A stretch of DNA of 47,083 nt from Candidatus Pacearchaeota archaeon (GTDB lineage Archaea; Nanobdellota; Nanobdellia; Pacearchaeales; GW2011-AR1). Below the pieces are notes generated by a model. It was not told where the DNA came from and searched no databases. It saw only the letters and a program-made list of their open reading frames with translations. Each line of letters starts with the position of its first letter. Within the stretch, counting starts at the first letter, position 1. The DNA is taken from NCBI GenBank assembly GCA_023132255.1, contig JAGLYK010000006.1, positions 1 to 47,083 on the forward strand, read 5' to 3'. Below are positions 6,557 to 29,654 of the stretch, one piece after another. Both the position numbers and the translations under genes were made by a program.

Positions 6557-6713
6557 TGGCCCTGGAGGGATTTCTTTATCTCCCGACTTCACACGGGTTA
6601 TTTATTTTAAATTTACTCCCTACCACGAAATCGCTCGACCCCCGAGATTAAATCTATTTGAATTTACCTGACTTGAAATCCAAAAGAATAAAAGGGATTT
6701 GCAATCCCTTATA
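6557..6713 (-). repeat. Tandem structured unit 1 of the tRNA-Lys-linked array
   Basis: Ends with the tRNA-Lys 3' sequence (tggccctggagggattt on +), shares AATTTACCTGACTTGAAATCCAA and GCTCGACCCCCGAGA with unit 2, contains hairpin core shared with 29114-29170. Confidence 0.75.
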
Positions 6714-6873
6714 TGGCCCTGGAGGGATTTCTTGCTCCCACACGCACTTGTTTATAACATTCGCTTTGCTCACAAATACATGCAAGTGCGAATGCTCGAC
6801 CCCCGAGAACTAAATATTAAAATTTACCTGACTTGAAATCCAAGAATTAAATGCTATCTGGCGATAGCATAAA
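6714..6873 (-). repeat. Tandem structured unit 2 of the tRNA-Lys-linked array
   Basis: As unit 1; period 157-160 bp; hairpin ATGCTATC/GATAGCAT at 6851-6870. Confidence 0.75.
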
Positions 6874-6948
6874 TGGCCCTGGAGGGATTTGAACCCCCGA
6901 CACCTAGATTAAGAGTCTAGTGCTCTAACCAAGCTGAGCTACAGAGCC
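6874..6948 (-). tRNA. tRNA-Lys (anticodon CTT)
   Basis: Minus strand GGCTCTGTAGCTCAGCTTGGTTAGAGCACTAGACTCTTAATCTAGGTGTCGGGGGTTCAAATCCCTCCAGGGCCA; full cloverleaf; CCA not encoded. Confidence 0.95.
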
Positions 6949-29053: not shown

Positions 29054-29198
29054 CATGCGACTTCCATGAGTGTTATAAAAAGTCGCACACCTGAACAAAA
29101 AGAGAAGGTTAAGCCGAGCGATTTCGTGGTAGGGACAAATGAAAATAAATCCCCCGTGCGAAGTCGGGAGTTAAGGAAACCGCAGGTGTCCTCGCATG
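29054..29198 (+). promoter_or_regulatory. Candidate structured 5' leader RNA (leader copy 2), interrupted by a mobile-like hairpin core
   Basis: Stem GCGACTT(29057-29063)/AAGTCGC(29080-29086); ACACCTG(29087-29093)/CAGGTGT(29183-29189) covering the SD; insert 29114-29170 flanked by TTAAG. Confidence 0.7.
29114..29170 (+). repeat. 57-nt hairpin core, homologous to minus-strand 6580-6638
   Basis: CGAGCGATTTCGTGGTAGGGA...AAAATAAAT..CCCGTGYGAAGTCGGGAG shared; TTAAG at 29109-29113 and 29171-29175. Confidence 0.72.
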
Positions 29199-29654
29199 GA
29201 TAAATTCCTTGAAAATCTTGAAGAAGCACACAAGATAATCTCCATTGCTGACCACATGCTTTATGTAACCTTTCCTTTGATTCAAGACAAAAAACTTTTG
29301 TTAAAAATTCTACTAGACACAAAAATTGCAATTTCCAAGTGCATTAGTTCTGTCCTCCAATACGAATATCTTTACAAAAGAATAAAACTTTGCAATGACC
29401 CAAAAACAAATTTCAGGACATTTACAGAAAAATGTGCCAAGAGATATAATATTACAGAACAAGAAATTAGATTAATCGCGGAATTATTTGATGTTGTAGA
29501 AGAGCATAAAAAAAGTTCAATGGAATTTATGAAAAATGAAAAAATTGTAATTCTTTCCCAAAATTTACAGCAAAAAATAGTAACAATTGAAAAAGTCAAG
29601 GAATTTTTAATATTAGCAAAAAATATTTTGGAAAAAATTAAAAAAACAGTTTAA
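29196..29654 (+). CDS. All-helical protein, possibly HEPN-like
   Basis: LENLEEAHKIISIADHMLYVTFPLIQDKKLLLKILLDTKIAISKCIS; shares N-terminal pattern with 29842..30282. Confidence 0.6.
   Translation: MDKFLENLEEAHKIISIADHMLYVTFPLIQDKKLLLKILLDTKIAISKCISSVLQYEYLYKRIKLCNDPKTNFRTFTEKCAKRYNITEQEIRLIAELFDVVEEHKKSSMEFMKNEKIVILSQNLQQKIVTIEKVKEFLILAKNILEKIKKTV

Follow-up and report, generated by a model that had tools for sequence, protein, structure and literature searches.

Short hairpin units behind archaeal tRNA genes carry copies of the adjoining tRNA 3' end and are probably mobile

Behind the tRNA-Lys(CTT) gene of a Candidatus Pacearchaeota archaeon, on the minus strand, lie two units of 157 to 160 bp, each closed by 17 bp identical to the 3' end of the tRNA. 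Such arrays are not confined to tRNA-Lys, and the one here exemplifies a pattern that recurs throughout the genome. We consider it probable (at about 0.7) that such units are mobile hairpin elements, short and non-autonomous, which insert at mature tRNA 3' ends and are repeated into arrays. The analysis revealed a copy tailored to the local tRNA, a fixed right end, precise empty and filled sites, fossil copies, interiors shared by different tRNAs, and conserved stems.

The array behind tRNA-Lys(CTT)

The window, meaning the whole stretch of DNA that was analyzed, comprises 47,083 nucleotides of contig JAGLYK010000006.1 (assembly GCA_023132255.1) and belongs to a genome (G000) of 625 kb in 39 contigs that is 78% complete. 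Its tRNA-Lys(CTT) gene (6874 to 6948, minus strand) is complete, was recognized by ARAGORN and by Rfam (RF00005, 70.1 bits), and has no encoded CCA; the duplicated target is its last 17 nt, AAATCCCTCCAGGGCCA. The genes around the site encode TFIIS/RPB9-like zinc ribbons, CDC48, and CTP synthase. Read on the plus strand, the 17-mer TGGCCCTGGAGGGATTT occurs exactly at 6557, 6714, and 6874 (spacing of 157 and 160), the 23-mer AATTTACCTGACTTGAAATCCAA is identical at 6661 to 6683 and 6821 to 6843, and GCTCGACCCCCGAGA is identical at 6633 to 6647 and 6794 to 6808. That 400 bp should hold three exact 17-mers and a common 23-mer is far beyond chance. The first-pass annotation had reported these repeats and their periods, together with 8-bp hairpins specific to each unit at 6851 to 6870 and 6692 to 6710, and every coordinate proved exact.

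In minus-strand order, each unit consists of an 8-bp hairpin (HP1), the 23-mer, TCTCGGGGGTCGAGC, a second hairpin, and the 17-nt copy of the tRNA 3' end. In unit 1 (6714 to 6873, minus strand, 160 bp), HP1 (6851 to 6870, stem ATGCTATC/GATAGCAT) comes directly after the tRNA end and is followed by the 23-mer (TTGGATTTCAAGTCAGGTAAATT, 6821 to 6843), the core of which, AGGTAAATT, is present in tRNA-Thr and tRNA-Lys units of other genera. Then come TCTCGGGGGTCGAGC (6794 to 6808), where the copy of the T-stem 5' strand meets the foot of the inserted hairpin, the inserted hairpin module (6735 to 6797), and the exact 17-bp copy (6714 to 6730). The module is of the GAGC...GGGAG type in a CATTCGC variant that is also found in a tRNA-Thr unit at G000:C2. 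Unit 2 (6557 to 6713, minus strand, 157 bp) follows the same plan, with its own HP1 (6692 to 6710, 8-bp stem AAGGGATT/AATCCCTT), a 23-mer (6661 to 6683) and a T-stem 5' copy with hairpin base (6633 to 6647) that are both identical to those of unit 1, a hairpin module of the GAGCGATTTCGTGGTAGGGA...CCCGTGTGAAGTCGGGAG type (6580 to 6637), and the exact 17-bp copy that closes both the unit and the array (6557 to 6573). Against covariance model R1, which was built from eight units, the two score 143.7 and 144.5 bits, respectively. A comparison of unit number at this locus among relatives had been proposed at the outset, and the number does vary: the tRNA-Lys gene plus unit 1 is 92% identical to the same region in another species of the genus (G001), where unit 2 is missing.

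The origin of the repeated parts can be read from the tRNA itself. The unit segment TCGGGGGTC equals the T-stem 5' strand of the same tRNA-Lys, and the 17-nt stretch equals the T-stem 3' strand, the acceptor 3' strand, the discriminator, and part of the T-loop. The T-arm and the acceptor 3' strand are thus duplicated, with a hairpin occupying the T-loop place of the T-arm copy. This bears out the earlier description of the units as a T-arm plus acceptor 3' strand with a hairpin replacing the T-loop and no tRNA 5' half; no 5' half is present in the Lys units, and inspection of the Lys and Thr units found no complement of the acceptor 3' strand. A further proposal, that GGATTTC and GAAATCC close the unit, holds in G000 and in several Thr units, but the pairing is poor in most Lys units of other genera, so such closing is not general.

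Elsewhere, too, the T-stem 5' copy follows the local tRNA, reading CGAGGG in G045, CGTGGG in G044, and CGGGAG at the tRNA-Thr gene of G014; the tRNA-derived parts of these units are CGAGGGTC, CGTGGGTC, and CGGGAGTC, respectively. A tRNA-Trp unit in G009, a Nanoarchaeota (now Nanobdellota) bin, UBA9966, of the same family as G000, carries GGGTTAGATT with the unusual T-loop of that tRNA. In most cases the T-arm 5' part of the G009 units fits their own tRNA better than other tRNAs, and in many of them, by inspection, a tRNA 3' half reappears once the inserted hairpins are taken out.

Occurrence across tRNAs and genomes

We counted as an own-tail copy any stretch with at least 12 of 16 matches to the tRNA's own 3' end within 350 nt downstream of it. 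In five genomes of the family, 40 of 134 recognized tRNAs are followed by such a copy (7/27 in G000, 3/27 in G001, 17/29 in G009, 6/27 in G117, and 7/24 in G118), compared with 1 to 5% reaching the threshold when the tails of other tRNAs were searched on the same DNA. Upstream of the tRNAs, no own-tail copy was found among 83 tRNAs of G000, G001, and G009. The count was 0 of 20 in G068, from another family of the same order, and 1 of 18, equal to the control level, in G079, from another family of the same class. Arrays in G009 reach four units and more.

Within the family, the covariance model had matches in 26 of 181 genomes, drawn from 20 of 87 genera; the genomes are incomplete metagenome bins. 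Nearly all of the top matches lie directly behind a tRNA gene (Lys, Thr, Ala, Ser, Glu, Arg, Gly, or Leu), and the unit plan is common to tRNA-Thr and tRNA-Lys loci in many genera. The literature that we searched offered no precedent for a genome where over half of the tRNAs examined each have an insertion of their own that lacks genes and repeats the end of that tRNA, and that search, which was not exhaustive, gave no description of this tRNA-end pattern. We also noted that tRNA-Lys genes of other genera carry different short inserts, most of which open with an inverted T-arm and which likewise close with a copy of the tRNA 3' end.

Shared interiors and integrase elements

An interior 82% identical to that of the Lys units stands behind tRNA-Thr(TGT) in G000, closed by the tRNA-Thr end instead. 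An element marked by GGGGGTGACTTGTYAGG, mostly ending in ATACGA, lies behind Val and Ser(CGA) in G117 and behind Arg(CCT), Val, Ser(GGA), and Leu(TAG) in G118, with the local tRNA end coming next at every locus; a related element lies behind Pro in G117. In G001, a unit at Ser(GCT) combines the Ser(TGA) T-loop, TTCGATTC, with a 3' copy that matches Ser(GCT). These sequences argue that the interior moves between tRNAs.

Large mobile elements dock most often at tRNA genes, and the first-pass annotation had suggested att-like tandem cassettes. In outline this holds, since the 3'-end copy arrives with the insert and both empty and filled sites exist (see below). Classical att recombination is nonetheless unlikely because related interiors bear different 3' copies, each fitting its own tRNA, and because a survey of G000 tied no tyrosine integrase to the units. 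Could the units still be remnants of ordinary tyrosine-integrase elements, such as those represented by SSV, pNOB8, and genomic islands, whose att sites lie within tRNA 3' ends? The tRNA 3' end is the classic att site, and integrative elements that target tRNA genes do leave partial tRNA copies (PMC3293823, PMC9897764). SSV1, pNOB8-type elements, and the PYG1 island resemble the units in that they insert at a tRNA gene, keep the tRNA intact, and have a partial tRNA copy at the far end. These elements, however, span kilobases, are coding, and occupy one tRNA each, with a single attP identical to one tRNA 3' end, whereas the units are mostly 40 to 290 bp, are non-coding, form arrays, and carry at many different tRNAs copies tailored to each; in recurring with conserved structure, they are also unlike decayed large islands. 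A search for an integrase elsewhere in the genome had been suggested, and G000 does contain one partial tyrosine-integrase domain, but it lies away from the units; in a survey covering that genome, we saw no tyrosine integrase in or beside any unit. Such an origin appears very unlikely.

Empty sites, filled sites, and fossil copies

Three loci allowed an empty site to be compared with a filled one between species of a single genus. At tRNA-Asp, G000 is empty and G001 is filled, with GGCGTGGGCG plus T duplicated. At tRNA-Arg(CCT), G117 is empty and G118 has AAATCCTGTCTCGGGCATTT duplicated around about 60 bp; at tRNA-Leu(TAA), G118 is empty and G117 has the 22-bp GTTCGAACCCTGTCTCYCTCAT duplicated around a 44-bp insert. 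The 3'-end copy thus comes with the insert, like a target-site duplication. As in transposable elements, the direct repeat is present in the filled site only and a related interior recurs at several loci. By themselves, the pairs equally fit precise loss between repeats.

The insert at tRNA-Val(GAC) is common to G117 and G118, and the copy in both is CTGCGCAGGACCA. The G117 tRNA differs from it in the T-stem (CCGCG) and the G118 tRNA in the acceptor (TGGGACC), the copy agreeing in each divergent part with the tRNA of the other species. The copy is thus most simply read as a fossil of the ancestral sequence that has not been kept to match the tRNA. At tRNA-Gly, the copies in G117 and G118 carry different changes. 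The unmatched copies at these two loci argue against selection for matching the tRNA.

These data bear on a different reading, in which the units are functional RNAs, cotranscribed with the tRNA, structured, and cut out by tRNA-processing enzymes, with their tRNA-like ends under selection. The folded form would indeed seem to matter, whether as RNA or as single-stranded DNA and whether for movement or for a role as RNA, given the compensatory changes: when eight related units were aligned, changes on both sides that preserve pairing were seen in 14 of the 23 pairs predicted for HP1 and the inserted hairpin, and HP1 of unit 1 has a compensatory A-T to G-C change between G000 and the orthologous unit of G001. 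Between G117 and G118, only about 3 of the 144 positions of the tRNA-Thr(CGT) unit have changed, whereas aligned DNA is about 88% identical, and this conservation, taken with the compensatory stem changes, could reflect function. The plan shared by tRNA-Thr and tRNA-Lys units in many genera also agrees with an RNA role. Yet the Lys and Thr units have no 5' acceptor strand, which a tRNA-like end requires, presence varies within a genus (7/27 in G000 versus 3/27 in G001), interiors are very different between tRNAs, and the copies at tRNA-Val and tRNA-Gly behave as described above. The earlier suggestion of a polycistronic tRNA-ncRNA transcript with tRNA-like processing signals is weakened by the same observations, the failure of the tRNA-Val copies to track their tRNA coming close to the random decay that had been named beforehand as speaking against a transcript. 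We regard a functional RNA of this kind as unlikely.

Single-sequence folding gave nothing unusual against shuffles (z scores of −0.9 and +0.7 for the two Lys units). No known RNA family in Rfam accounts for the units; in this region only tRNA-Lys itself reaches the cutoff.

Edges of the duplication

For 36 exact copies in five genomes, the match to the tRNA stops at the discriminator plus the next T, save for short T-run matches and tandem repeats. The left end of the duplicated stretch is variable, lying 9 to 23 nt upstream in the T-arm. Most transposases produce a duplication of fixed length, and the 9- to 23-bp range seen here departs from that pattern. Many inserts also open with an inverted copy of the T-arm, which scores 6.6 against the tRNA of its own locus and 5.2 against other tRNAs (4.55 and 4.46, respectively, at tRNAs without a unit). 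Being locus specific, this inverted copy is not an element end. Plain target-site duplication predicts neither the inverted T-arm copies nor the repetition of the T-stem 5' strand in longer units, and the varying length of the duplication also goes beyond it; a foldback or template-switch step may take part.

Replication alone might even be held responsible, through template switching or foldback at the T-arm palindrome that yields a tandem inversion duplication with direct, inverted, and direct copies and gains hairpin repeats by switching. Inserts that open with an inverted T-arm and close with a direct copy, and that vary in duplication length, are what such a process would leave. Against it, similar interiors and a fixed right end at different tRNAs (for example, CATACGA and then the copy) require an element rather than copying errors alone, and the right end almost always coincides with the discriminator base plus T. 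We consider this account improbable, somewhat more so than a functional RNA.

Proposed insertion and candidate machinery

The favored reading, that of mobile hairpin elements, would work as follows. Elements of about 40 to 290 bp, mostly non-coding and built of hairpins, would be inserted immediately after the mature tRNA 3' end; the duplicated stretch would end at the discriminator base (plus the T usually found next) on one side and 9 to 23 bp upstream, in the T-arm, on the other. Filling in of this offset would duplicate the stretch, so that the insert always ends in the 3' end of its own tRNA and the tRNA stays intact. Arrays would be built by repeated insertion beside the tRNA and by unequal recombination between copies. 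The copy would then be a target-site duplication made by a dedicated candidate integrase or transposase, which may be drawn to tRNAs by the universal T-arm, and the hairpins may be recognition sites or intermediates of that putative enzyme. If it recognizes the universal T-arm, nearly every tRNA gene of a genome would be usable.

Casposons, the Cas1-solo transposons, come to mind as a source of non-autonomous elements moved by a Cas1-type casposase. They share with the units target-site duplication at tRNA genes, a T-loop sequence nearby, and a repeat-insert-repeat look. Most casposons of family 2 have inserted in tRNA genes, and the Aciduliprofundum boonei casposase, which makes a 14-bp duplication, needs the T-loop sequence TCAAATC 8 bp upstream of that duplication (PMC6614799). 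In the units, however, the duplication begins within the T-arm, ends at the discriminator, and is variable in length, and there is no coding element. Cas1 (PF01867) is present in 10 of 181 genomes of the family but in none of the 26 unit-positive genomes, which are incomplete bins. We accordingly discarded the casposase as a candidate and hold a casposon origin to be the least probable of the alternatives, far less likely than the replication-based account.

Miniature inverted-repeat transposable elements (MITEs) and palindrome-associated elements of archaea and bacteria are closer in appearance, being short, non-coding, hairpin-forming, dispersed in many copies, and nested, and the units are likewise short, non-coding, multicopy, and made of hairpins. 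MITEs, however, make duplications of set length and end in inverted repeats that belong to a transposase, and those derived from IS200/605 make no duplication; none of these elements is known to prefer tRNA 3' ends. The units also recall noncanonical archaeal tRNA introns at T-arm positions, in which a hairpin is inserted in the T-arm. In the units it is a second copy of the T-arm that is interrupted, an intact tRNA stands alongside, and there is no 5' half; no bulge-helix-bulge was recognized in the units by eye.

The search for an autonomous copy of the element found none. A tRNA-Asp unit in G009 (G009:C15, about 72785 to 73875, minus strand) holds a 290-aa orphan open reading frame in its hairpin loop, between two arms; it had no family match and, in our scan, no relative beyond G009, and we rejected it as an autonomous element on these grounds. 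By eye, it contains RIWATH, an RxxxxH motif. A retroelement origin was set aside after reverse transcriptase (PF00078) went undetected in the eight unit-rich genomes (G000, G001, G009, G014, G045, G053, G117, and G118, all incomplete bins), as was reverse transcription primed from a mature CCA end, no CCA following the tRNAs. Absences from bins of this kind carry little weight. In the family as a whole, 69 of 181 genomes have reverse transcriptases, often several each. Motif scans of viral contigs gave nothing convincing as a carrier: the hairpin motif had no exact match, and four matches to the 18-mer middle motif are probably due to chance, since ARAGORN found no tRNA gene on those contigs.

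Whether the units form a new class of gene-free micro-elements, built of nested hairpin modules, acted on by a putative T-arm-recognizing enzyme, duplicating the 3' end, and forming repeat-insert arrays without Cas1, we judge an even question. If so, the building of arrays would formally resemble CRISPR or casposon integration in the absence of Cas1. The pattern points to a putative T-arm-specific integrase or transposase and offers a natural comparison for how repeat-insert arrays such as CRISPR, or intron gain at tRNAs, can begin. Because the tRNA ends persist as fossils, insertions can be counted and roughly dated, which should be useful for following element movement and tRNA evolution in uncultured archaea.

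Dispersed and nested hairpin modules

Away from tRNAs, too, copies of the units' hairpin modules are dispersed, nested in one another. That of unit 2 has copies without tRNA-end context at C17, C32, and C7 of G000 and, in the window, at 29115 to 29179 (plus strand), where it is not behind a tRNA and is nested inside another palindromic repeat. The host, at 29060 to 29200, is itself a dispersed repeat of the type GCGACTT..AAGTCGC followed by CACCTGAAC..GGAAACC, and related repeats occur behind tRNA-Asp, -Pro, -Leu, and -Gly in G000 and G001. G009 is full of nested hairpin repeats in which modules sit within the loops of others (e.g., C13:29114, C14:17409, C18:63156, and C19:24973), with outer stems such as AAAAAGTGTGTTTAATAATAAGATTTTAAC...GTTAAAATCTTTGACACACTTTTT. 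A further hairpin module, AAAGAACCCGCTGGTTCTTT...GGCGATTTC..GAAATCGC, is found both in the tRNA-Lys intron of G014 and behind tRNA-Ile in G181.
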